This document shows, piece by piece, positions 23,001 to 40,668 of a DNA stretch of 64,000 nt. Position numbers and translations under genes: made by a program. Within the stretch, counting starts at the first letter, position 1; each line of letters begins with the position of its first letter. The notes below the pieces were generated by a model. The model searched no databases and was not told the origin of the DNA. It saw only the letters and a program-made list of their open reading frames with translations. This DNA is from Paludibaculum fermentans. Lineage in GTDB: Bacteria > Acidobacteriota > Terriglobia > Bryobacterales > Bryobacteraceae. The stretch is taken from the NCBI RefSeq assembly GCF_015277775.1, contig NZ_CP063849.1, positions 8,075,501 through 8,139,500 of the forward strand. Direction: 5' to 3'.

Positions 23001-25039
<2,039 letters not shown>

Positions 25040-25133
25040 AGTGAAAGATTGTATCGGTTCGCGGGGGTCATACAATAAATCACGCGGGCCGCCCGATGTT
25101 GTATAGTCGCCGCCGCATCCCGCCGCACTGCCT

Positions 25134-26806
<1,673 letters not shown>

Positions 26807-26810
<4 letters not shown>

Positions 26811-29800
26811 AGCTCGGCGCCCTGTTCCTGCTCCCTCTAGCCTGCTTCGCCCTCGACCCCGGCCTGCGCCTCTCCCAGTACCACAAGAAGGTGTGGCAGA
26901 TCGAGGACGGCCTCCCGCACAACTACGTCAACGCCATCCAATACGCGCCCGACGGCTACCTGCTGGTCGGCACGGGCGAGGGTCTGGCCCGCTTCGACGG
27001 AGTCCGCTTCACTCCGCTCGCCGGCGCCGCTTCCATCGAGCGCCAATGGATCAGCGCCCTCGCCCCAGCGCCCGGCGGCGCTTACTGGATCAGCACCTAC
27101 TACCAGGACCTCTACCGCCTGGAAAACCGCAAGCTGCGCCGCATGCTGCACGGCCAGGCCAGCATGATGGGCCTCTTCACGGACTCCACCGGAGCCCTCT
27201 GGATCAGCGCCAACGGCATCCTCCGTCTCGATGCCAAGCGCGCCGCGCCGGTAGGCATCGGCAGCTCGGCCGGCAACTCCTGGCACGTCTTCGCCGAGGA
27301 CACGCGGCATCGCATCTGGATCACGGCCGGGGGCGGACTGCACTGCTACGAGAACGGCAAGGCGCGCCTGGTCGTCAAGGACGGCGGCCCGCACGGCAGC
27401 ATGCTCAGCGTCATGGCCGGACCCGATGGCGTCATCTGGGCTGGAGCCTCCAACGGCCTCTACCGGGTGCGCGAGTCCGGCGCCACAGTCACCCTCGAAC
27501 GCCAACCCGGCGTCAACGGACCCGTCGTCAAAATCCTGCGCGACAAGGACGGCATCCTCTGGGCCGGAACCTGGGGCCAGGGCCTCTACCGCGTCACGCC
27601 CACAGGCGCCGAACACTGGTCCACCCGCGACGGCCTCTCCGACGACTTCATCCGCACTCTCTTCGAGGACCACGACGGCAACCTCTGGATCGGCTCCCGT
27701 AGCGGCGGCCTCAGCCGTTGGAAGAATCCGCTGGTCGAGCCCTTCGGCGTACCGGAAGGACTGGGCGGCAACTTCGCCTCGGCCGTCATGGAAGCCGAGG
27801 GCGGCGGCCTCTGGATGGGCACCTGGCGCAGCGGCCTCTTCCGCCTCCAGGGCGGCGTCTTCCAACCCATGCCGACGCCCCTGCCAGCCCTCGACCTCGG
27901 CATCCGCTCGCTAGCCGGCGACGGCCGCGGCGGCCTCTGGCTGGGCACCTGGGAAGGCCTCCATCACTTTGACGGAAAGACCTACGATCCGCGCATCTTC
28001 CTCCGAGGCTCCGTCTCCGCCATCCTGCGCGACCGCAAGGGCGGCCTCTGGGTAGCCGGAGCATCGCTTCGCTACTTCCCCACCGGCAACCCAACAGCCG
28101 CCATCGGAGCCGCGTTCGGAGCCGCGTTCAGAGCCGCCGCAAATAGAGCCGCGAACGTAAGTGAGCGGATAACCCCCCGTAACGCCCCAACCAACCCACC
28201 AGCGCGGCCCGCCGCGTTCGGAGCCGCGTTCAAAGCCGCGACCGCAAGCAGCGGGGGAGCCCCCGATACTCTCCAACCTGCCAGTGGACCCGTGCGTCAA
28301 CCGAGCGCGCCCTCCCCCGACCCCGGCCAACTCCTCCTCCCCGCCACCAATACCAACTGCCTCCTGCAGGACCGCCAGGGCCGCGTCTGGGCCGGCACGG
28401 ACTCCGGCGTGGCCGTCTTCGAGAATGGCCATCTCACCTGGATCCGCCGCGAACAGGGCCTCGCCGACGACTACATCACCTCCCTGACAGAGGACACCCA
28501 GGGCCGCATCTGGGCCTCCACCCGCGGTGGCTACCTCGCTTACCTGCACGGCGCCCGCGCCACCTCCCTGGGCCCCCGCGAAGGCTTGCCCGGCCACTCC
28601 CTCTTCAAACTCCTGGACGACCAGTCCGGCAGCCACTGGATCAGTTCTTCCCGAGGCATCCTCCGCATCCCGTCCACCCAACTCGACGACCTCCTCGCCG
28701 GACGCCGCCCGTCCCTCGACGTCACCCTCTACGAGCAGGAGGACGGCCTCCGCACCATCGAATGCCATGGCATCTCCCAGCCCTCTGGCTGGCGCGACTC
28801 CGAAGGCAGTCTCTGGTTCCCCACGGCCAAGGGCTTCGTCCGCATCCGGCCCGGACGCACGGCCAGTCCACCCGCGCCGCCGGTCCGCATCGAGGAGATC
28901 CTCGCCGGCTCACAGCCTCTGTCCGCACCGGTCGAACTCCAGCCCGGAGCCCGCGACCTCGAAGTCCGCTTCACCGCCCTGCGCTTCTCCTCCCCCACCC
29001 ACCTCCGCTTCCGCTACCGCCTCGAAGGCAACGATCCCGGCTGGGTCGAGCGCAACGCTGAACGCTCCGCCCGCTACACCACCGTCCCGCTCGGCCTCCA
29101 CCGCCTGCTCGTCGAGGCGCGCGAACCCGGCGGCCCCTGGAGCCAGCCCGTCTCCGTCACCATCCGCCAGTTGCCCCGCTTCTACCAGACCGCCTGGTTC
29201 TTCACCGCCGTCCTGCTCGCGCTCGCGGCCCTCGGCTACGCCTTCTACCGCTGGCGCATGTATGTCCTGCGCGGCCGCTACAAAGCGGTGCTGGCCGAAC
29301 GCAACCGCATCTCACGCGAATGGCACGACACCCTGCTGGCCGGCTTCTCCGCCATCTCCTGGCAGCTCGACGCCACACTCACTCGTCTCAAGGAACAGCC
29401 CGCCCGAGCCGCTGAGGCCGTCGACGTCGCCCGCCAGATGGTGCATCACTACCGCGCCGAAGCCCGCCGCGTCATCTGGGACCTGCGCGAAAACGACCCC
29501 GTCTCGGAAAGCCTGCAGGACGCCGTCGCCCGCACCATGGAACAGATCACCGCCGGCACCGGAGTCGCCACCAAACTGGAAGTCAGCGGCTCGCCCGGCG
29601 TCATGTCCAGCGACCTGCGCCAGAACGCCCTCCGCATCTGCCAGGAAGCCACGGCCAACGCCGTCCGCCACGGCAAGGCGGCGAACGTGCTGGTGGGCAT
29701 CCAGTACACCAGCGAAGCGGTGAAATTGCGCATCCGCGACGACGGCGCCGGCTTCGATCCCAAGCGCACCCTCAGCACGCCCAGCGGCCACTTCGGCCTC

Positions 29801-29917
29801 ATCGTGATGCAGGAGCGCGCCCGCCGCTTCGGCGGAGCCCTCCATATCGACAGCGCGCCCGGCAATGGTACGATCGTCGAAGCAGACCTTCCGCTTCAGA
29901 CGTCGAAGCCCGCATGA
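26807..29917 (+). CDS. Two-component propeller sensor histidine kinase (HisKA_3), with in-frame repeat insert
   Basis: 1036 residues with a signal peptide. Periplasmic beta-propeller repeats (GxLWIGTxxGLxR type) run from about 45 to 425 and resume at about 515-620. A Y_Y_Y domain spans ~690-790, with a membrane helix at ~795-817. HisKA_3 has phospho-acceptor His840 (REWHDTLLAGF), and the HATPase has EATANAVRHG and DDGAGFDP. The propeller is split by ~85 residues of low complexity (about 428-512) with AAFGAAFRAA and AAFGAAFKAA; at the DNA level this is a dispersed repeat also found between genes. The stop overlaps a regulator start (ATGA), but that regulator copy is only a stub because of the insertion downstream. 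Confidence 0.93.
28100..28275 (-). repeat. Dispersed repeat element lying inside a coding sequence
   Basis: Read on the minus strand, 28140-28180 is TATCCGCTCACTTACG then TTCGCGGCTCTATTTGCGG, nearly the same as the intergenic copy at 47190-47226. A 29-bp direct repeat (GCCGCGTTCGGAGCCGCGTT plus nine bases) occurs at 28109-28137 and 28211-28239 with one mismatch. A second core-like unit (minus strand CTTGCGGTCGCGGCTTTGAA) follows in each. The whole block is in frame in the propeller kinase and encodes Ala/Phe/Pro-rich sequence unlike the rest of the protein. Outer limits are estimates. Confidence 0.75.
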
Positions 29918-29987
29918 CAGACCCGATTCGCATACTTCTGGTTGAAGATCAGTACTTCGCCCGCCTTGCCCTGCACACCGTTATCGA
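29852..29987 (+). repeat. Direct repeat, left copy (kinase/regulator junction)
   Basis: 136 bp covering the last ~22 codons of the kinase and the first ~24 codons of the response regulator. It matches 34073-34208 at a fixed offset of 4221 bp. The first 115 bp are identical, then there are single-base differences at 29967 and 29982, and the match ends at 29988. This is far longer than any transposon target duplication. It marks the left edge of the insertion. Confidence 0.95.
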
Positions 29988-30051
29988 GGCCATCCTGCAT
30001 TGGGCACTCCGCCTGCCTTACCACGATGGACGGGGCAGCACACACAAGTGA
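29914..30051 (+). pseudogene. Response regulator 5' stub
   Basis: The ATG overlaps the kinase stop exactly as in an intact kinase-regulator pair. The first 24 codons (MTDPIRILLVEDQYFARLAL then HTVI) match the full regulator at 34135. After the repeat ends the frame runs into unrelated sequence and stops after 45 codons. Only the first strand and the acidic ED pair of a receiver domain remain, so it cannot be phosphorylated. It may still be translated, being coupled to the kinase stop. Confidence 0.9.
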
Positions 30052-30715
30052 TCGCGTGATTGTACCCAAACCGTCCGCGCCTCGCCGTCTGCCTGCCGCC
30101 GCAACTGAGTTCGTCGACCCACATGGGATCCACATTGGATGCTCTGGAGATCTTCCGTCTCCGAAAAGGGCTGGCGCATTGGCCCCGTCATTGGAGTCGG
30201 TGGTGTAAGGCAATCACTAGATGCATTGCGAAGTTCTCATGATTCTGCCGGGAATAGCTGGAGAAGCCGCCAAAAAGCTGAGATGGCTAACTGAACTAAA
30301 GAGCCATGTTTGTGGAGGATCTGCTCACTACAGGATGCCTGGCTGTCTGTGGCAGGATTTCCACTCCGCGTCTTCTGTTGCAGGTTGTTAGGGGGGGCAT
30401 TGCGGAGTTTGCGGCGCGTCAGTCTAGTGCTTTTTCGTGCGGTATGGTGATGGGTTGGGCTTAGTACTCGCATTTGAGAGGTACTCATCGTTGCATTAAA
30501 ACGAAAGAAACCGTCGCACGCTTCTGGCGTTTATGTGGGAAATGAAGTTGTATTTTTCTTGGTGTATGGCGGCGACTCGCTTATACTCGCTATCAGTACT
30601 GAGGTCTTCAGTCGAGGATATTGGCGCAATAGCAGTATCGGTGTCTGTCCTGCTCCCACCTAGGTGTGGGTAGGAGTCGATCTGCCGAGAGGTCGCGCCG
30701 TTAGCGAGGACGCAC
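30052..30715. other. Gene-free stretch in the insertion
   Basis: 664 bp with no convincing gene on either strand; the short open frames lack ribosome sites and protein-like composition. It includes a run of eight G at about 30389. Some parts resemble eroded coding sequence, but I cannot place a parent gene. The last 160 bp likely hold the promoter of the protease-like gene. Confidence 0.6.
30559..30587 (+). promoter_or_regulatory. Candidate sigma-70 promoter for the insertion's protease-like gene
   Basis: TTGGTG (30559-30564) and TATACT (30582-30587) with a 17-bp spacer, in a locally AT-rich stretch about 130 bp before ATG 30716. The -10 matches the consensus at five of six bases, the -35 at about four. 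The transcribed leader has a small inverted repeat (CCCAC/GTGGG) near 30655-30670. The prediction rests on sequence alone. Confidence 0.4.
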
Positions 30716-33016
30716 ATGAAATCAGGGTTCTGTCCTGGTCAAAAACCACGCGCAGCATGTGCTGCGATGGCCGCCTGGATTCTAGTTGGCTTGTCTATCT
30801 CCCCGTCGCTTGCTGGTTCACAGACGGATGCTCAGCGGCGCGATAGCCCGAGCCGTCGCTTCGTGCATTCTTCACTTAAAAGGACGCCATTGCCCGCCGG
30901 TTTCCCTCGGAGAGTGAATCGCAATGCCGCCGTGCAGTCGGCCAGTGGCACCTGTCACACGTCGACTGACACGTTGATCTCTACTGATCTCTCGCTTGCA
31001 CGTCCATCGGGCGCTGGCTCGTGGACGTGTTATGACATACTCGTGGTACCCGAGGGTGTGCCGTACGCAGCGGTCTACTTTCTCGTCACTCCGGCGACTG
31101 TGCTACCGACCTGCGTGAGCAGTTGGTCCACTTCGATCGTATCTTCGTCTCATGGGCTCTTGTTTTCTGATGGAGGCCAGTGGCTAATATCAGAACAGTC
31201 CGATTCCTACGTGATGGAGCTGCCGCCAGGCCAAGGTCAGTTCGAGATTACCGTGACAACCACAATCGCCGGACCTGATGCTGTATCGGGCCAAATTTGT
31301 GGGGGCGCTCAGAATGGCGCGATTCAGGCAGGGGCCTCCTTTGGTGCTGTCCTTCGATTGACCGGAACGCCTTATTCGTATCGTCCAATGGACGGGTACG
31401 ACAGCGCTTCAGGATGTTCGAATGCGAATCCGTCCTCGTCAGGGCAGGGCTGTCATAGGAGCTACACGGCGACCTTGATACCGGCTGCACTCGCTGGCAA
31501 ACCGGATCTCTTCGGTTACAGTACAGGGAGTCCTGCAAGAACTATTTTCCGGCTGCAAGACGTTTCAAGTCATCCCGGACGGTCTACAAACCAATGCTCT
31601 TCCCCAGCCTGCAACTCGGCCCAGGACACTGGACCTGACTACATCTTCGATGCTACACGACAAGTGCAAAGTAGCTCGCTTTCTAGCCCGGAAGATGAAG
31701 GACGCAGTATCGCCACAATTCCAGGGACTACAAATGCAACTGTTGTTGTCTCGTCCCGTGATTATGGGGGCAGTGCATCGCTTCAGGCCGTCTTGCAGTT
31801 TCAGCTGGAGGATGGAACGTGGAGCGATGCATTCTACTCGTCAGAGGTCGATGAAGTTGGTCGTTTTACCGGATCGGCTTCGACTGGACTCCCGCTCGAC
31901 GGCAACCAAAATGGGATCGCCGATAGTTGGGAGGCCCAATACAGTGCGAATGGGGACCCGATAGATCCAGACTCTGATCTCGACTGTATGTCGGGCTGCG
32001 GCACGATGAAGACCGGCGACGGCTTCACTGCGTTTGAAGAATACCGGGGGTTTCACTATGTCGATCGTACGAATGGCTATCAGATCAAGTGGCGCTCCAC
32101 AGATCCTGCGCGCAAGCGAGATCTGTTTGTCTATGATTATTCTGGACTATTTGCCGGCGATCTTCAGTTCTTTCGCGGGCAATTTCCTGATATTGAGTTG
32201 CGAGAGGTAGATCAGCAGACAGCGGAGTTGGACGACGATGCGGCACCAATTGAAATCAAGCGCCTAAATGTGAACAGTCTCTCTTCAATAGATGTATTCC
32301 CGTTGCTGCTATTGAATGCTAGCCTCCCGGGAAATTGCGATCCAAGCCATGGTCCGATCGACGCCGAACTTGGCCATGCTCCGGATGAACCCGCAGCGAC
32401 GGGGCCCGATAGTCGTGCGATTATGCTCGACAACGCGAAGATTGTTGAGTGTGGCCAGCAGTTGGGGTTTCCCTTAGCGGACTGGCGTCAGATTTTGGTC
32501 GCCCACGAAATCGGACATAATTTGAACTTACGCCACCCAACTCAACTTCGAGGCTTCGCTCCAGTGGCGTATACAAATAATCCGTTACTGCTGCAAGCGT
32601 TGCCCCTCGACAAGTACACATACGACCATTCTCCAAGTAGCGAGATATTTACCTGGCTAATGGAATATAACTACTCGGCCCCTGCGCAAGGACTGTCTTC
32701 ATTGTGGAGATTGGAGAGAGTGTATCCAGGATTAGGCGTGTTAGGATCTGTGAAAAGCGTGACCGTCAGCTCTCCATATTACACGAATTCTGGAGCCCCT
32801 CAGCGGAGTTTGCGCAAAATTGAATTTGAAAATGAGATCACGGCGCAAAACGTGCTGGTGGTCTTGAGTTGGCTGTGGAATGCAGGTCCGAGCGGCGCTT
32901 TAGCGAACGTTATGAATTGGACCCCGCGCTTTGACCCGCAGTATCAATCTGTCAGTGCCTACTCCTTTAGTGATACGGATAAGCAGACTGCCTGTACGAA
33001 GAAAGTGTGTAATTAA
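30716..33016 (+). CDS. Secreted metzincin-like zinc metalloprotease (putative)
   Basis: 766 residues. A basic N-terminus is followed by a signal peptide (about residues 14-34, ending SPSLAGSQ). The N-terminal half is Ser/Thr/Gly-rich with several Cys. A calcium-type loop follows around residues 390-425 (LDGNQNGIADSWE, DPDSDLD). The catalytic-type motif HEIGHNLNLRH lies at residues 597-607 (His597, Glu598, His601, His607). Metzincins have HExxHxxGxxH; here Asn replaces the Gly, so activity is likely but not certain. Composition differs from neighbours. It lies in the insertion and is followed 14 bp later by another exported protein. Substrate unknown. Confidence 0.75.
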   Translation: MKSGFCPGQKPRAACAAMAAWILVGLSISPSLAGSQTDAQRRDSPSRRFVHSSLKRTPLPAGFPRRVNRNAAVQSASGTCHTSTDTLISTDLSLARPSGAGSWTCYDILVVPEGVPYAAVYFLVTPATVLPTCVSSWSTSIVSSSHGLLFSDGGQWLISEQSDSYVMELPPGQGQFEITVTTTIAGPDAVSGQICGGAQNGAIQAGASFGAVLRLTGTPYSYRPMDGYDSASGCSNANPSSSGQGCHRSYTATLIPAALAGKPDLFGYSTGSPARTIFRLQDVSSHPGRSTNQCSSPACNSAQDTGPDYIFDATRQVQSSSLSSPEDEGRSIATIPGTTNATVVVSSRDYGGSASLQAVLQFQLEDGTWSDAFYSSEVDEVGRFTGSASTGLPLDGNQNGIADSWEAQYSANGDPIDPDSDLDCMSGCGTMKTGDGFTAFEEYRGFHYVDRTNGYQIKWRSTDPARKRDLFVYDYSGLFAGDLQFFRGQFPDIELREVDQQTAELDDDAAPIEIKRLNVNSLSSIDVFPLLLLNASLPGNCDPSHGPIDAELGHAPDEPAATGPDSRAIMLDNAKIVECGQQLGFPLADWRQILVAHEIGHNLNLRHPTQLRGFAPVAYTNNPLLLQALPLDKYTYDHSPSSEIFTWLMEYNYSAPAQGLSSLWRLERVYPGLGVLGSVKSVTVSSPYYTNSGAPQRSLRKIEFENEITAQNVLVVLSWLWNAGPSGALANVMNWTPRFDPQYQSVSAYSFSDTDKQTACTKKVCN

Positions 33017-33030
33017 AGTAGGTGATAAAT

Positions 33031-33918
33031 ATGTACACAAAAGTCATATTGGTTGGGCTATTGTACGCGGGCTGTCTCGCAGGTCAGCCACCAATGATGC
33101 CAGGCGAGGATGAGTATCGGCGTATTGTTCGAGGGATGAAAGCGTCATTGCGAAGCAATGTGGCCCTCGACCGCCGTGAATACTTGCCGGGCGAACGCAT
33201 CTGCGCCACCGTGACCGTCGAAAACTCGTCGAGCCATGCTGTGATGGCATTTGCTCCTTTCCATTCGAAAGAGAGCAAGTTCACCTTGTGGGCTTTGAAC
33301 AAAAGTGGCGAATGGGAGCCTACGTCCGACTGGACGCCAAGGGTCGTTTCGGAACCGACGAATCTCATGGCGGATCGGCGGTTGGAGACCTTTGTTGCCG
33401 GGGAAAAGCGATCGGCGTCGATATGTCTCACCGAAAACGATCTGGTGGGCAACCCGATTCGTCATAGGGCGGCTTGGATCTTTCCACCTGGGCAGTATAA
33501 AGCGCGATTCGATTTTCTCCAGTCCGCGGAAGCGGAGTTCACAATCCTGCCAATCGACGAGGTCGCGGCCATGGTGGCCCGGCCACTGCCAGAAGCCGAA
33601 CTTTATCGAAAAGATGGAGGCAGGATTAGGCCGGGCTGTCTAGGTATGGTTGCGGCTGCGTTTCGAAGCGGGGAGCGCACAATCCTCGTTCGTTCCATGT
33701 CCGGGATGAGGGATACGTGCTCACGACTCACCACACAGGATGCATTGGTGCGGACGATGCACCCTTCAATTCGCATCGCGGAATCTGCTGGGGCTGTGGA
33801 GTCATTCGATCTGACGCCACTCGCCGATGGTTCTGTGGAGGCGACATGGTCCAGTGCCGGAGGGCCGCATCGGGAAAGGATCGCCCGGCCGGTGTTCCCC
33901 GATCGACGAGAACGATGA
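33031..33918 (+). CDS. Small secreted protein of unknown function
   Basis: 295 residues from ATG 33031, with AGGTGA six bases upstream; GTG 33022 is an alternative. A short signal peptide (MYTKVILVGLLYAGCLAGQ) has a Cys in a lipobox-like place (AGCLAG), so it could be a lipoprotein. Residues 45-80 (YLPGERICATVTVENSS) resemble the beta-sandwich start seen in many exported proteins that shape 'earned' envelope domains. No enzyme motif. It directly follows the metalloprotease-like gene within the insertion, so the two probably work together, for example as protease and partner or inhibitor. That is inference. Confidence 0.6.
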   Translation: MYTKVILVGLLYAGCLAGQPPMMPGEDEYRRIVRGMKASLRSNVALDRREYLPGERICATVTVENSSSHAVMAFAPFHSKESKFTLWALNKSGEWEPTSDWTPRVVSEPTNLMADRRLETFVAGEKRSASICLTENDLVGNPIRHRAAWIFPPGQYKARFDFLQSAEAEFTILPIDEVAAMVARPLPEAELYRKDGGRIRPGCLGMVAAAFRSGERTILVRSMSGMRDTCSRLTTQDALVRTMHPSIRIAESAGAVESFDLTPLADGSVEATWSSAGGPHRERIARPVFPDRRER

Positions 33919-34072
33919 GCCGACTGGCTTCCCTTCTGGGGTGCCCGCACGGAGTCGCGAGGAGCCGGCGCACCCCATGGCTCACCAGCCGCCAGAAAGG
34001 TGGAATAACCTTCGTTGCCCATGGCGGAGGGACAGCGCCAGGCGAACTGTGTCGGCAGTGCTCTGCATCTGG

Positions 34073-34208
34073 AGCGCGCCCGGCAATGGTACGATCGTCG
34101 AAGCAGACCTTCCGCTTCAGACGTCGAAGCCCGCATGACAGACCCGATTCGCATACTTCTGGTTGAAGATCAGTACTTCGCCCGCCTCGCCCTGCACACC
34201 GTCATCGA
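34073..34208 (+). repeat. Direct repeat, right copy (kinase/regulator junction)
   Basis: Second copy of the 136-bp block (see 29852-29987). It retains the final 21 kinase codons (SAPGNGTIVEADLPLQTSKP then A) out of context, directly before the intact regulator start. Sequence left of 34073 shows at best weak likeness to the kinase (about 34020-34072), which may be chance or an eroded extension of the repeat. Confidence 0.95.
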
Positions 34209-34761
34209 TGCGCGGGAAGACATGCAGATCGTCGCCGAGACCGACAAGGGCGCCGAAGCCATCGGCCTCTACCGCGAACACCAGCCGGACGTCACCATCA
34301 TGGATCTGCGCCTGCCCGGCATCTCCGGTTTCGACGCCATCGCCGCCATCCGCAAGAGCGACCCCAAGGCCCGCATCGTCGTCCTCACCAACTACGAAGG
34401 CAGCGAGGACGTCCACCGCGCCCTCCAGGCCGGAGCCATGGCCTACCTGCTCAAGGACTCCAGCGCCGACGATCTGTTAACTGCCATACTCACGGTCAAG
34501 TCCGGCAAACGCTACCTCCCACCGGTGATCTGCGGCCTCCTCTCCGAGCGCATGTCCGGCTCCGAACTCACCGATCGCGAGCTCGATGTTCTCCGTCTCA
34601 TCACCGAAGGTCTCAGCAATCGCGAAATCGCAGACCGCCTCCACATCGCCGAGAAGACCGCCAAAATCCACGTCAGCCATCTCCTCGACAAACTCGGAGT
34701 CGTCGACCGCACTCAGGCCGCCATCACCGCCATTCAACGCGGCATAGTCCATTTAGACTAG
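34135..34761 (+). CDS. NarL/FixJ-family response regulator
   Basis: 208 residues. Receiver domain with acidic pair Glu11-Asp12, phospho-acceptor Asp57 (TIMDLRLPG), Thr in VVLTNYEG and Lys in YLLKDSS; then a C-terminal LuxR-type helix-turn-helix (LTDRELDVLRLITEGLSNRE region). It is the natural partner of the HisKA_3 kinase at 26807-29917, whose gene originally ran straight into it with an ATGA overlap. The insertion has cut that coupling, so its expression now depends on a promoter inside the insertion or on read-through. The right repeat copy keeps 21 kinase codons in front of it. Confidence 0.95.
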   Translation: MTDPIRILLVEDQYFARLALHTVIDAREDMQIVAETDKGAEAIGLYREHQPDVTIMDLRLPGISGFDAIAAIRKSDPKARIVVLTNYEGSEDVHRALQAGAMAYLLKDSSADDLLTAILTVKSGKRYLPPVICGLLSERMSGSELTDRELDVLRLITEGLSNREIADRLHIAEKTAKIHVSHLLDKLGVVDRTQAAITAIQRGIVHLD

Positions 34762-34866
34762 ATTCCTCTAGGCCCTACGACCTACAAATAATCAATCCAA
34801 ATGGCAGACGCGCCCAGGCAACGAAAAGGCGCATAACTAACATGGTCCCTGGCGGACCGGACTACG

Positions 34867-36264
34867 ATGTCATTTTCCCGACGCTCTCTTCTCTCCCTGG
34901 TGGCCGGCTCCGCTGGCGCCTCTTTTGCCCAGTCCCTGACGCCGGCTTCGGCGAACATTGGATTCAAGGCCGACACCATCCCTGAACGTTCTGAATGCGG
35001 CATCGGCGCCCTCATGCCCTGGGCCGATTCGCTCTGGGCCATCACCTACAACAGCCACATGCAGGGCACCGGCTACGGCCTCGGGCTCTATCGCATCGAC
35101 GAGCAGTTGAAGAGCGAACGCGTCCACGTTCACGACGGCACTCACGCCAACCGCCTCATCCACAAGGAATCGAACCAGTGTTTCATCGGCCCCTACGTCA
35201 TCGACGCCAAGGGCAACTGGAAGCACATCCCCGAGTTCGACAAGCACCGCATCACGTCCACCATGCGCCATCTGACGGATCCGGCCAACCGGGTCTACTT
35301 CCAGACTATGGAAGGCGTCTTCGGCGAGATGGATGTCAAGGATCTCAAGCCCCGCCCGCTGTTCGACCTCGTGAAGCAGATGGGCCTGGCCAAGCGGCCC
35401 CACTTCAAGGGCGGCTTCACCGCGCAGGGCCGCGTCGTGGTCGCCAACAATGGCTTCTATGAGTACGGCGAAGACAGCGCCGGCCTCTTCGAGTTCGACG
35501 GCAAGGCCTGGAACCGGCTCTCCGGCAAGCCGCACATGGACGTGGCCGCCCGTCAGGATATGGGCTCCGTCATGTTCGCGACGGGTTGGGACGAAGCGTC
35601 GGTCCTCTTCTGGGCGCTCGTGCAGGGCAAGTGGCAGCGCTTCCGCCTGCCCAAGGCCAGCCACTCCTTCGAGCAGGCCTGGCAGACCGAATGGATGCGC
35701 ATCCGCGAGGTGGAAACCGAACACTACCTCATGGACATCCAGGGCATGTTCTACGAACTCCAGCCCATCGCCTTCACCGGCCATATCTGGGGCGTCAAGC
35801 CCATCTGCCAGCACCTGCGCATCATCCCCGACTACTGCGCCTTCCGCGGCCTCTTCGCCGTGGGCGGCAATCAGACCACACCCAACCGCGACAACAACGC
35901 CGTGGCCGGACAGCCGCAATCCGGCCTCTGGTTCGGCAAAACCGACGATCTCTGGAGTTGGGGGAAACCCGCCGGTTGGGGCGGACCCTGGTGGAACTCC
36001 CAGATCAAAAAGGACGAAACGTCCGACCCGTATCTCATGACCGGCTTCGACCGCAAAATGCTCCACGTCAGTGCCGACAAGCCCGTGGTCATCGAGATCG
36101 AGATCGACTTTATGGGCACAGGCGCCTGGATGCCCTATGGACGCGTCAGTGTGGGAGCTGACGGCTATCAGAAGCACATCTTCCCGGATGGCTTCTCGGC
36201 GCATTGGGTGCGGTTGAAGTCGCAGGCGGATTGCCGCGCTACGGCTGCATTCTTTTATTCATGA
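34867..36264 (+). CDS. Exported protein of unknown function (Tat-type signal)
   Basis: 465 residues. The N-terminus MSFSRRSLLSLVAGSAGASFAQ has the SRRSLL twin-arginine pattern followed by a mildly hydrophobic stretch, so export folded through Tat is likely. The body is rich in Trp, Gly and Phe with repeated short beta segments (YFQTMEGVFGEMD, GLFEFDGKAWNRL), which suggests a beta-propeller-like fold. No catalytic motif recognised. It sits 43 bp before the Oar-type receptor gene on the same strand, so an envelope or nutrient-uptake role is possible. Confidence 0.65.
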   Translation: MSFSRRSLLSLVAGSAGASFAQSLTPASANIGFKADTIPERSECGIGALMPWADSLWAITYNSHMQGTGYGLGLYRIDEQLKSERVHVHDGTHANRLIHKESNQCFIGPYVIDAKGNWKHIPEFDKHRITSTMRHLTDPANRVYFQTMEGVFGEMDVKDLKPRPLFDLVKQMGLAKRPHFKGGFTAQGRVVVANNGFYEYGEDSAGLFEFDGKAWNRLSGKPHMDVAARQDMGSVMFATGWDEASVLFWALVQGKWQRFRLPKASHSFEQAWQTEWMRIREVETEHYLMDIQGMFYELQPIAFTGHIWGVKPICQHLRIIPDYCAFRGLFAVGGNQTTPNRDNNAVAGQPQSGLWFGKTDDLWSWGKPAGWGGPWWNSQIKKDETSDPYLMTGFDRKMLHVSADKPVVIEIEIDFMGTGAWMPYGRVSVGADGYQKHIFPDGFSAHWVRLKSQADCRATAAFFYS

Positions 36265-36306
36265 TCAGGGGCTGCCCCGTCGCAAAAGGTCTTTTGAGGT
36301 GATTCC

Positions 36307-39300
36307 ATGTTGAGATTCGCTTTGGTTTTTCTGCTTTCCCTGGCCCTTCCGCTGGTTGCCCAGCAGGGCCGCGGAACCGTAATAGGAACGGTGACGGATG
36401 TCTCCGGCGCGGCTGTGCCCGCCGCCGAGATACGCGTCATCAACACCGGCACCAATGCCGCTTTCACTGCAACCACGAATGAGGAAGGGCAGTTCACGGC
36501 GCCCTCCTTGCCCGTCGGTTCCTACACCGTCACCGCTGAGAAGCAGGGCTTCAAGAAGGGTGTCCGCAGCGGCATCACCCTGCTCGTCGATCAGCGCGCC
36601 GAGGTCAATATCCGCATGGAGGTCGGCCAGACCTCCGAATCCATCGAAGTCGTCGGTGAAGCCTCCCTGGTGGACACCAGCAGCGCCACCGTCGGTAAAG
36701 TGGTCGAGAACCGCCGCATCGCCGACCTGCCGTTGAACGGCAGAAACGCCCTCGCGCTCGTCATGCTGACGCCTGGCGTCAAGTCCCAGGCCGGCCCCAC
36801 CAACAGCGGCTTTGTCGATCGCGGCACCGCGCTCTCGGCCATCAGCATCAACGGCGGCCCCAGCTCGATGAACAGCTTCATCGTCGACGGCGGCAACAAC
36901 AACAGCGCCTTCCTCGCTGACATCAACGTCAACCCCACGGTCGACGCCGTCCAGGAATTCAAGGTGCAGTCCAACGTCATGTCCGCTGAATTCGGCTTCA
37001 CCGCCGGCGGCGTCGTGAACATCGTCACCAAGTCGGGCACCAACGATCCCCACGGGTCGCTCTACTACTTCGCCCGCAACGACGCCTTCGACGCCCGCAA
37101 CGCCTTCGCCGCCACCAAGTCGCCCTTCCGCTACCACCAGTACGGCGGCACCATCGGCGGGCCCGTGGTTCTGCCCAAGATCTACAACGGCAAGGACAAG
37201 ACGTTCTTCTTCTTTAACTACGAAGGCTGGCAGAACCGCCGCTTCGCGTCTAACATCCTCAGCGTGCCCATCGAAGAGCAGCGCAACGGCAACTTCTCCA
37301 ACCTGCGAGACGCTTCCGGCAAGCTCATCCAGCTCTACGATCCCAGCACGACGAAGCAGAACCCGAACGGTTCCGGCTTTGTCCGCGATCCCCTGCCCAA
37401 CAACATCATCCCCACCAATCGGCTCGACCCCGTGTCGCTCAAGATGATGCAGTTCTACCCGCTGCCCAACCGCACCCCCACCAACGCCTACACCTTCGCC
37501 AATAACTGGATCGGTCAGGTACAGGAAGAGCGTCACATGAATCAGTGGACCGCCAAGGGCGATCACCGCTTCAACGACAAAAACACGCTCTCCGGCCGCT
37601 GGGCTTACTACAAGCACTTCAACAACAACGGCTTCGCGGGCTCGCTGCCCGACCCCAACGTCCGCCAGCGTCTCGACAACTACCTCAACTACAACGGCGT
37701 CATCAGCGACACGCACAGCTTTACGCCGACCATGCTGAACGAATTCCGCATCAGCGCCGCCCGCCAGGCCTTCCCCTTTACCGCTTACAGCTATGGTCAG
37801 GGCTGGCCCGCCAAGCTCGGCCTGCCCTCCAGCGTTCCCGGCGACACCCTGCCTCGCGTCGACAACGGCCTGCCCGGCTTCGGCGCCTTCACAGTCGGCC
37901 TCCGCGGCTCTACCACCTGGCAGTTCGTCGATTCGCTCACCAAGATCGCCGGCAGCCACACCATGAAGTTCGGCGTGGACTTCCGCCTGCAGCAGGCCAA
38001 CAACTACCAGCGCGAAGTGCCCTCGGGGCAGTTCAACTTCTCCGCCGGCCTCACCCAGAACCCGCAGACGCCTGTCGGCACCGGCAGCTCCTTCGCGACC
38101 TTCCTCCTGGGCAGCGTGAGCAGCGCCTCCCTCATCCGCTACGGCGGCGAGTCCGAGAAGGCTTATTCCACCAGCTTCTTCTTCCAGGACGATTGGAAGA
38201 TGTCGCGCAAGTTCACCGTGAACCTCGGCCTTCGCTACGACTACCAGCAGTGGCCGCGCGAGCGCAACAACGGCACGTCTAATTTCGATCCCTTCGCCGT
38301 CAACTCGCTCACGGGCCTCCCTGGCCGCATCGAGTACGCCAACATCGACTACGGCAAGACGTTCACGGATCCGATCTACACGAACTTCGGACCCCGCGTC
38401 GGCTTCGCCTATGACGTGTTCGGAACCGGCAAGACCGTCCTGCGCGGCGGGTACGCCATCTTCTATCCGCAGACGTTCTACCGCGATTCGTTCGGCAACA
38501 CCGCCGGCTTCGCCAATACGTCCACCGCTTACAATCCCCCCAACAACAACACCAACCTGGCGGCCTTTCAGTTCAAGGATGGCTTCCCGACTCCGGCCAT
38601 CGAACCCCTCGGTCCGAAGCTCGGCCCCAGCGCCTTTCTCGGCCAGGGCGTGAGCTGGGATCAGGGCGGCCAGAAGGTCCCCATGTCCCAGCAGTGGACC
38701 CTCTCGCTGCAGCAGCAACTGCCCGGCAAGTGGATGGTCGATGCCGCCTACACGGCCAACAAGGGCACCAACTACTACGCCAGCTCCTTCGACTACAACC
38801 AGCTCGACCCGCAGTACAACGCGCTCGGTCTGAGCCTGCAGGATCAGGTCCCGAACCCCTACGTGGGCAAGGTAACCGGCTCTCTCGGCGGGTCCACCAT
38901 CGCCCGCTCCCAGTCGTTGAAGCCCTACCCTTACTACACCGCCGTCACCGTCCGCCTGCCTCACCTGGGCGGCTCGAACTATCACGCCCTGCTCGCGACC
39001 GCCGAACGCCGGCTCGACAATGGCTTCGCCATCCTCGCGTCCTACACCTTCGGCAAGGTCATCAGCGACAGCGAAGTCGTTCCCTCCAACTTCGGCGCGG
39101 TCGAAGTCGGCGCCGACAACGGCTACCAGAACGGCAAGTACAACCGCAAGGCTGAACGCTCGCTGGATCCCACCGATGTCTCGCAGCGCCTCGTGCTCAG
39201 CGGCATCTACGAACTGCCCTTCGGCAAAGGCAAGCGCTTTGCCTCCAACAACGGCTTCACTGACCGCATCATGGGCGGCTGGCAGTTGAACGTCATCTCC

Positions 39301-39726
39301 ACCCTGCAGGGCGGCTTGCCGCTGGCCGTGCGCGGAGCGAACAACTTCCTCGCCAACCGGCCCAATTCGACCGGCGTCAGCGCCAAGCTCGACAACCGGA
39401 CGTCGGACAAATGGTTCGACACCACGGCGTTCATCAACCCGCCCAACTTCACCTACGGCAACGTCAGCCGGACCTTGCCCGACGTTCGCGGACCTGGCAT
39501 CGTCAACTTCGATCTGTCGATGATCAAGGACACCCGCATCGCCGAACGAGTCCGGCTTCAGTTTCGCGCTGAGGCTTTCAACTTCGTCAACCACCGCAAT
39601 CTCGGCAATCCGAACGTCAGCTTCTCTCCGGGCACCAACGGCCTGAACATCAGCTCGACCTTCGGCATCATCACTTCAGCCCGCGACCCGCGCATCATGC
39701 AGTTCGGGATGAAGTTGATGTTCTAA
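36307..39726 (+). CDS. Oar-like TonB-dependent receptor with carboxypeptidase-regulatory domain
   Basis: 1139 residues: signal peptide (MLRFALVFLLSLALPLVAQ); carboxypeptidase-regulatory-like domain ~20-100 (GTVIGTVTDVSGAAVPAAEI); plug ~115-230 (LPLNGRNALALVMLTPGV, INGGPSSMNSFIVDG); then the large barrel starting near GGVVNIVTKSGTN, ending in MKLMF. GAGGTGA lies five bases before ATG 36307. Such proteins are abundant in Solibacter relatives and take up large substrates or act in surface attachment. The substrate is not evident. A 12-bp stem-loop follows between it and the convergent proC. Confidence 0.92.
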   Translation: MLRFALVFLLSLALPLVAQQGRGTVIGTVTDVSGAAVPAAEIRVINTGTNAAFTATTNEEGQFTAPSLPVGSYTVTAEKQGFKKGVRSGITLLVDQRAEVNIRMEVGQTSESIEVVGEASLVDTSSATVGKVVENRRIADLPLNGRNALALVMLTPGVKSQAGPTNSGFVDRGTALSAISINGGPSSMNSFIVDGGNNNSAFLADINVNPTVDAVQEFKVQSNVMSAEFGFTAGGVVNIVTKSGTNDPHGSLYYFARNDAFDARNAFAATKSPFRYHQYGGTIGGPVVLPKIYNGKDKTFFFFNYEGWQNRRFASNILSVPIEEQRNGNFSNLRDASGKLIQLYDPSTTKQNPNGSGFVRDPLPNNIIPTNRLDPVSLKMMQFYPLPNRTPTNAYTFANNWIGQVQEERHMNQWTAKGDHRFNDKNTLSGRWAYYKHFNNNGFAGSLPDPNVRQRLDNYLNYNGVISDTHSFTPTMLNEFRISAARQAFPFTAYSYGQGWPAKLGLPSSVPGDTLPRVDNGLPGFGAFTVGLRGSTTWQFVDSLTKIAGSHTMKFGVDFRLQQANNYQREVPSGQFNFSAGLTQNPQTPVGTGSSFATFLLGSVSSASLIRYGGESEKAYSTSFFFQDDWKMSRKFTVNLGLRYDYQQWPRERNNGTSNFDPFAVNSLTGLPGRIEYANIDYGKTFTDPIYTNFGPRVGFAYDVFGTGKTVLRGGYAIFYPQTFYRDSFGNTAGFANTSTAYNPPNNNTNLAAFQFKDGFPTPAIEPLGPKLGPSAFLGQGVSWDQGGQKVPMSQQWTLSLQQQLPGKWMVDAAYTANKGTNYYASSFDYNQLDPQYNALGLSLQDQVPNPYVGKVTGSLGGSTIARSQSLKPYPYYTAVTVRLPHLGGSNYHALLATAERRLDNGFAILASYTFGKVISDSEVVPSNFGAVEVGADNGYQNGKYNRKAERSLDPTDVSQRLVLSGIYELPFGKGKRFASNNGFTDRIMGGWQLNVISTLQGGLPLAVRGANNFLANRPNSTGVSAKLDNRTSDKWFDTTAFINPPNFTYGNVSRTLPDVRGPGIVNFDLSMIKDTRIAERVRLQFRAEAFNFVNHRNLGNPNVSFSPGTNGLNISSTFGIITSARDPRIMQFGMKLMF

Positions 39727-39748
39727 TTTGACGGTGTTTGGCACACTA

Positions 39749-39775
39749 AAATTACTTGACTCCGTCAAGTAATTT
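39749..39775. terminator. Stem-loop between convergent genes (bidirectional terminator candidate)
   Basis: AAATTACTTGAC, three-base loop TCC, GTCAAGTAATTT: a perfect 12-bp inverted repeat, 22 bp after the Oar-type stop and 23 bp from the stop of the convergent proC. The stem is AT-rich for this genome, and the U-run on either side is short (TTTAGTT), so it is not a classic intrinsic terminator. It may instead be a protein site. It lies near the point where strand composition switches (about 40 kb). Confidence 0.55.
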
Positions 39776-39798
39776 AGTTGCTTCGGTCAAATAACCGC

Positions 39799-40668
39799 TC
39801 ACCCATGGCTCTTGTCCTTCGGAAGGGCAGGAGCCAGGTGGGCGGCGGTCTTCGCCGCTTCTTCGATCGCCCTCGCCAGCACGGACCGGATCTTCCCGTC
39901 TTCCAGCATCAGCAATCCCGCAATCGTACACCCCGCCGGAGTCGTCACATCGTCCCGCAAGGCCGCCGGATGCCGCCCCGTCACCTGGACCATGCGTGCG
40001 GCTCCCAGCATGGTTTGAGCCACCAAAGTGAGTGCCAGTTGGCGTGGCAATCCGACCCTAACCCCTGCATCCGCAAGGGCTTCCATGACCAGATAGAGAT
40101 AGGCCGGACCGCTGCCGCTCAGCGCCGTGATGGCATTGAAGTGGTTCTCGTCCACGGTGACGCAGCGCCCGACTGCCTCGAAAATCCGCTGTGCCCGGGC
40201 GAGATCGACGTCGGTGGAATGTGTGCCGCCGCATACAACGGTCATCCCCTCGCGAACGACGCACGGAGTGTTGGGCATCGCCCGTATCCACGGGTTCGCG
40301 GTGCCCAGCATGGCTTCCAGTTGAGGGGTGCCCACCCCCGCCATGATCGACACAAGAAGTGTTTCCGGCCTTACACCAGACTGGCGAATCTTGTCGAGCA
40401 CCTTGCCCGACTGCGCCGGCTTCACGCAGAGCAGCAGCAGGTCCGCCCCGGGGACGCGAGCCGAGTAGTCCATCTCCACAGGAATGCCCAATTCGGCCGA
40501 GACTTTGGCGCAACTGGCCTGTGTTTTCGCCGAGGCCCAGATGCGATCGCGTTCAATGACGCCGCTCTCGACCAAGCCCTGAATCAGGGTGCGGCCCATG
40601 ACTCCGGCGCCAATCACACCCAGTGTGCGGCCCTTGGCCACGATGCCCTTTTTGTAGTCCGTGCTCAT
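39799..40668 (-). CDS. proC: Pyrroline-5-carboxylate reductase
   Basis: 289 residues. N-terminal Rossmann domain with LGVIGAGVMGRTL, NADP-loop features and the VKPAQ turn (CVKPAQSGKVLD); C-terminal domain with the family signature in ALSGSGPAYLYLVMEAL and TTPAGCTIAGLLMLE. The enzyme reduces pyrroline-5-carboxylate to proline, the last step of proline synthesis. The length is ~20 residues above the usual 270. It stands alone, convergent with the receptor and divergent from lacI. Confidence 0.93.
   Translation of the reverse strand: MSTDYKKGIVAKGRTLGVIGAGVMGRTLIQGLVESGVIERDRIWASAKTQASCAKVSAELGIPVEMDYSARVPGADLLLLCVKPAQSGKVLDKIRQSGVRPETLLVSIMAGVGTPQLEAMLGTANPWIRAMPNTPCVVREGMTVVCGGTHSTDVDLARAQRIFEAVGRCVTVDENHFNAITALSGSGPAYLYLVMEALADAGVRVGLPRQLALTLVAQTMLGAARMVQVTGRHPAALRDDVTTPAGCTIAGLLMLEDGKIRSVLARAIEEAAKTAAHLAPALPKDKSHG

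Follow-up and report, generated by a model that had tools for sequence, protein, structure and literature searches.

Duplicated kinase/regulator junction around a foreign two-gene insert in the chromosome of Paludibaculum fermentans

The closest described counterparts of the locus reported here are Campbell-type integrants at lacZ of Escherichia coli, in which direct copies of the homologous stretch flank the insert. In the part of that study on which we draw, single-crossover integrants carried duplications of 109-950 bp; the diagnostic PCR was positive in 56 of 60 clones, and sequencing was done on 14 (PMC3240628). Our locus likewise has an insert between direct copies, here of 136-139 bp, but the donor in E. 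coli was a laboratory plasmid, whereas here the homology is a gene junction and the donor is one that we only infer. Homology-facilitated illegitimate recombination is similar in combining homology on one side with an abrupt joint on the other. According to the same part of the E. coli study, it usually inserts DNA together with a deletion of similar size (PMC3240628); we rejected it because host sequence at our locus is duplicated and none is missing in comparison with the related genome G002. Integrative elements with long attachment repeats are alike in that a repeat over gene ends leaves both genes intact, and unlike in that the insert of about 4 kb holds only two cargo genes and no mobility gene was found. 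Literature searches on end joining with target duplication, on islands without an integrase and on single crossover with foreign DNA yielded no closer precedent.

The host is the wetland acidobacterium P. fermentans P105T. Its genome of 9,532,094 bases consists of a chromosome of 9,476,802 bp and a plasmid of 55,292 bp (PMC8407742). The window, i.e. the whole stretch of DNA that was analyzed, covers 64 kb of the chromosome (8075501-8139500), and all positions refer to it unless stated otherwise. The features of the locus are:

26807-29917, plus strand: intact hybrid two-component sensor kinase (open reading frame; Pfam Reg_prop, Y_Y_Y, HisKA_3 and HATPase_c), its 3' end lying in the left repeat
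29852-29990, plus strand: left-hand repeat of the kinase/regulator junction, without a difference from the right copy over 29852-29966
29914-30051, plus strand: 45-codon regulator stub (translation), departing from the regulator after HTVIEA
29991-34072, no strand assigned: inserted DNA of about 4.08 kb, GC 0.550, absent from the relatives G002 and G006
30716-33016, plus strand: putative secreted metzincin-like metallopeptidase of 766 aa (open reading frame with HEIGHNLNLRH; relatives L186, 29-33%, and L035, 32%)
33022-33918, plus strand: partner gene of 298 aa (open reading frame) with a lipobox-like N-terminus and no named domain, i.e. no Pfam match above cut-off
34030-34072, plus strand: diverged kinase-tail homology within the insert, directly upstream of the right repeat (agreement with G002 at 18 of 24 bases, then a 2-bp gap)
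34073-34211, plus strand: right copy of the junction repeat (repeat search)
34135-34761, plus strand: intact LuxR-type response regulator (Pfam Response_reg and GerE; 97% at the amino acid level in JAFKEE010000017.1)

The two copies form the single direct-repeat family in the 64 kb (search for at least 40 nt, seed 20). At an offset of 4221 they are identical at 136 of 139 nt (98%), with 115 bp in a row without a difference and mismatches at 29967, 29982 and 29988, so all three fall within the last 24 of the 139 positions of the left copy, on the insert side. An earlier note on this DNA, made from the letters alone, had placed the repeat at 29852-29987 and 34073-34208, with 136 bp, two mismatches and 115 identical bp; this is correct, and the third mismatch follows directly at 29988. 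BLAST lengthens the similarity to 162 bp at 93.2% (29829-29990 and 34052-34211). In the native arrangement the two genes form a signalling operon in which the stop of the kinase overlaps the start of the regulator (ATGA). The repeat covers this overlap, so that each gene retains the end it needs: the left copy keeps the end of the kinase, the right copy keeps the start of the regulator, and both genes are intact. The 45-codon stub and the intact regulator described in the note are both seen in translation. Within the kinase gene, a stretch at 28100-28250 carries short imperfect repeats (GCCGCGTTCGGAGCCGCGTTC and similar) and is absent from G006.

Direct repeats are classic points of misassembly, and the duplicated junction might have arisen in this way. 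The finished, closed assembly combines 454 reads of 530 bp on average with Nanopore reads whose N50 is 23.7 kb (PMC8407742). The former are longer than the repeat, the latter span it, and three differences separate the two copies. Misassembly of the locus is unlikely given these reads, and we regard an artefact as highly improbable.

Comparison with relatives shows an insertion. A search with the kinase matched 18 of 61 genomes at E <=1e-60, its own genome counted. Orthologues were found in G002 (82% amino acid identity) and G006 (78% and 74%, in two pieces), and the next matches reached at most 52%. At both orthologous loci kinase and regulator are joined at one copy of the stretch and the insert is missing. 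DNA identity on both sides of this empty site is about 90% in G002 and about 82% in G006, and synteny with G002 runs 7.5 kb downstream at 90%. The alignment to insert-free relatives that the note had proposed as a check thus found both sites empty and single-copy, and because of this the insertion is lineage-specific.

The inserted DNA is foreign in composition, as the note had suggested. Its GC content of 0.550 lies below the 0.686 and 0.622 of the 4-kb flanks and below all 257 other stretches of the same size in the window (0.601-0.689), and the GC3 of its two genes (0.54 and 0.60) differs from that of four neighbours (0.80-0.88). The insert DNA has no second copy in its own genome, and searches of the chromosome and the 55-kb plasmid returned no further one. 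Sigma-70-like sites numbered 5, with 2.3 expected, and terminators 4, with 3.8 expected; neither count was persuasive. Rfam gave no match within 25000-40000.

Part of the picture would be accounted for by a site-specific integrative element that has its attachment region over the junction, restores both genes and has lost its integrase or depends on one acting in trans. With attachment sites within genes, gene ends are preserved and homology fades outward from the core; here, too, the gene ends are kept at both ends of the insert and homology weakens with distance from the core. Against this, no integrase, transposase or phage family was detected in the two insert genes or in eight open reading frames at the insert ends, the 64-kb window contains no tRNA and hence no tRNA attachment site, the ends show no terminal inverted repeat above chance (score reached by 231 of 1000 shuffles) and the insert does not recur in the genome. 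This explanation is improbable. The note's statement that no integrase is present holds for the genes and frames searched. Its argument that the repeat is too long for the target site of a transposon is upheld as well. A transposon or insertion sequence was rejected, as neither transposase nor terminal inverted repeats were found in the genes, frames and insert ends searched.

Compared with G002, the changes sit at the insert-side end of the left copy, whereas the right copy looks native there. Similarity ends sharply at the left edge, near which there are two C-to-T differences, and does not extend beyond it (score reached by 483 of 1000 shuffles). Before the right copy, BLAST carries the homology 21 bp further into the insert. 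The next 24 bases agree with the G002 kinase at 18 positions, the best among 21 kinase tails in a test that was made post hoc; no match of this quality was reached by 200 shuffles or by 200 24-mers of the insert. The anchored extension scored 21; a score as high came from 1 of 1000 shuffles, from none of 300 sites in the insert and from 5 of 2000 random sites in the host. Two sites at the right edge have G, as in G002, and differ there both from the C of the chromosome's own left flank and from G006. One base common to both copies (C at 29913 and 34134) is absent from G002 and G006. At 34073-34226, 154 bp differ from G002 by a single base in a region whose mean difference is about 10%. This is the minimum among 8227 windows of comparison (mean 14.8); we do not rely on it because other such windows have 3-5 mismatches.

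The gradient from a core with 0 differences in 115 positions to a right edge with 6 in 24 would also be expected from an older and longer duplication. It would have measured at least about 180 bp, might be what is left of a tandem duplication, and would have had its interior filled or exchanged with foreign DNA while gene conversion kept the 115-bp core identical. Since fourfold sites differ between P105T and G002 by 31% in the kinase and 21% in the regulator, dead sequence of that age should differ. This explanation requires two or more steps and left no trace of a wider duplication in the 64-kb window, and we consider it unlikely.

We give about an even chance to single-crossover integration of a circular or circularized DNA carrying a homologous junction. 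DNA foreign to the lineage would have carried the protease/partner pair together with a homologous copy of the kinase-regulator junction of about 160-180 bp, and would have entered as a circle or been circularized by end joining. One recombination with the chromosome at the junction would then have inserted the circle in full, with a copy of the shared stretch at each end, thereby keeping the kinase end on the left and the regulator start on the right. The 45-codon stub and a dead kinase tail would be the residues beside the insert. Mismatch repair at the crossover, or later conversion, could have made the 115-bp core identical, so that donor differences stay at the insert-side edges, where all differences are found. 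We favour this mechanism because of the divergence at the insert-side edges, the diverged kinase tail past the right copy, which is closest to that of a sister species (G002), and the precedent in E. coli. Several findings speak against it: the C shared at 29913 and 34134 agrees no less well with a duplication of host origin, the core without a difference requires conversion or a donor identical there, the right-edge homology is short, the left end has no extension, and the donor must have borne the junction beside unrelated genes. The crossover proposed in the note is thus the leading explanation, but the episome it assumed did not turn up: neither a donor nor a free circle, nor any other match to the insert, was found in the organism's own chromosome and plasmid or among 72,556 plasmid and 50,697 phage records. 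Recombination through the repeat could also remove the insert again, as the note suggested, but no sign of excision was seen.

The shared C and the sharp left edge with its two C-to-T differences are at the same time what a second route would leave, in which a foreign fragment was captured at a long-staggered double-strand break or by template switching in break repair. Fill-in, or a return 136-139 bp upstream, would have duplicated host DNA, Ku and LigD would have joined the ends, and the outer parts would later have decayed while conversion kept the core alike. A base missing from G002 and G006 but present in both copies is expected of a duplicated host stretch, and the genome encodes both Ku and LigD. 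The diverged kinase homology past the right copy and the agreement with G002 at two sites are left unexplained by capture itself, and no bacterial route through such a long staggered break is documented in the literature consulted. We regard capture as possible, if doubtful. The gene for Ku (around chromosome position 3774285-3774821) adjoins a long LigD-type frame in convergent orientation. Genes for ComEC and DprA, which would bear on the uptake of DNA, are present as well, and the presence of all four genes also counts for the crossover. ComEC and DprA say little about competence, since they were also matched in 10 and 11 of 14 control genomes, respectively.

Whichever route applies, the locus is a real insertion with a duplicated host junction. 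It is fairly ordinary, and its mechanism is most likely of an already known kind. Its value lies in being a natural, datable case in which foreign genes entered a chromosome without mobility genes and left both interrupted genes intact. As a result of the insertion, the regulator may now be placed downstream of the insert genes and no longer be coupled to its kinase.

The larger cargo gene encodes a protein of 766 aa with HEIGHNLNLRH, a metzincin-type HExxHxxxxxH motif. Its residues H597, E598, H601 and H607 are conserved in all three aligned sequences. In Pfam only Reprolysin families matched, all below cut-off, with Reprolysin_5 as the best (E 0.01, 16.5 bits against 27). Single-sequence structure models were poor for both proteins (mean pLDDT 33.5 for the 766-aa and 37.7 for the 298-aa protein). 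A pattern search for a donor, made with the 766-aa protein, returned no relatives from 57 genome-contig stretches, none from 8 viral-contig stretches and none in plasmids, and a profile search detected distant ones in 11 of 121 relatives and 8 of 396 genomes of the phylum, the own genome being included in both counts. The best-matching relative lies in G191, where 560 columns can be aligned (29%); the gene after it, of 339 aa, is related to the 298-aa partner (23%, E 2e-5 for a single comparison). In G021, the gene after a 534-aa relative of the protease encodes 310 aa and matches the 339-aa gene of G191 (E 9e-24). Compared directly, the 310-aa and 298-aa proteins do not match (E 0.37), and another stretch of the same G021 contig matches the 298-aa protein at E 8e-4. 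Because protease relatives precede related partner genes in both genomes, the pair is a recurring two-gene unit, shared with two other Acidobacteriota genomes. As a guess, the protease might be bound or held in check by its partner. A BsuPI-type proteinase inhibitor, considered as a candidate for the partner, was dropped, as Pfam gave it no support up to E 10; the one match in that range was Arrestin_C (E 0.094). The pair in G021 lies on a contig of 3.4 kb (G021:C25), one end of which resembles the start of its own protease frame, and this suggests a tandem array of such pairs.

To place the repeat in the context of the chromosome, 2.464 Mb (26%) were scanned for direct pairs of at least 100 bp spaced by 0.3-40 kb. 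Two pairs reached at least 95% identity: the kinase/regulator junction, counted by its 139-bp core although BLAST lists it as 162 bp at 93.2%, and a pair at galT (95.8%); the next, of 106 bp, reached 94.3%. The last 120 bp of galT (Pfam) are repeated 1791 bp downstream (chromosome 8251537-8251656 and 8253328-8253447). The copies enclose a 417-aa gene, for which no Pfam family scored above cut-off, together with a 246-bp piece (85.8%) copied from the region upstream of another gene at a distance of about 1.3 kb. The interval downstream of galT varies in length in G002 and G006. DNA past the second galT end matches the G002 sequence downstream of galT, so the DNA after the first end is the newcomer. 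The galT case resembles the kinase/regulator insert but is older or more complex. Its composite insert with a piece copied from a nearby upstream region looks like patchwork repair, in line with capture, and its order would also fit a tandem duplication with one interior replaced.

Two cases make no system, and it is improbable that the lineage repeatedly gains foreign DNA by a joining that duplicates 100-140 bp at gene ends and keeps the operon intact. If this were true, the window and galT would represent two events and the protease/partner pair one travelling cargo; and if galT arose by the same process, Acidobacteria could reveal the frequency with which genes are gained through short homology or end joining. 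The scan also listed several pairs of about 105 bp (88-94% identity) that bear no resemblance to each other. Repeat pairs at 3.10 and 3.21 Mb look, by reading, like Rhs/YD-type genes.
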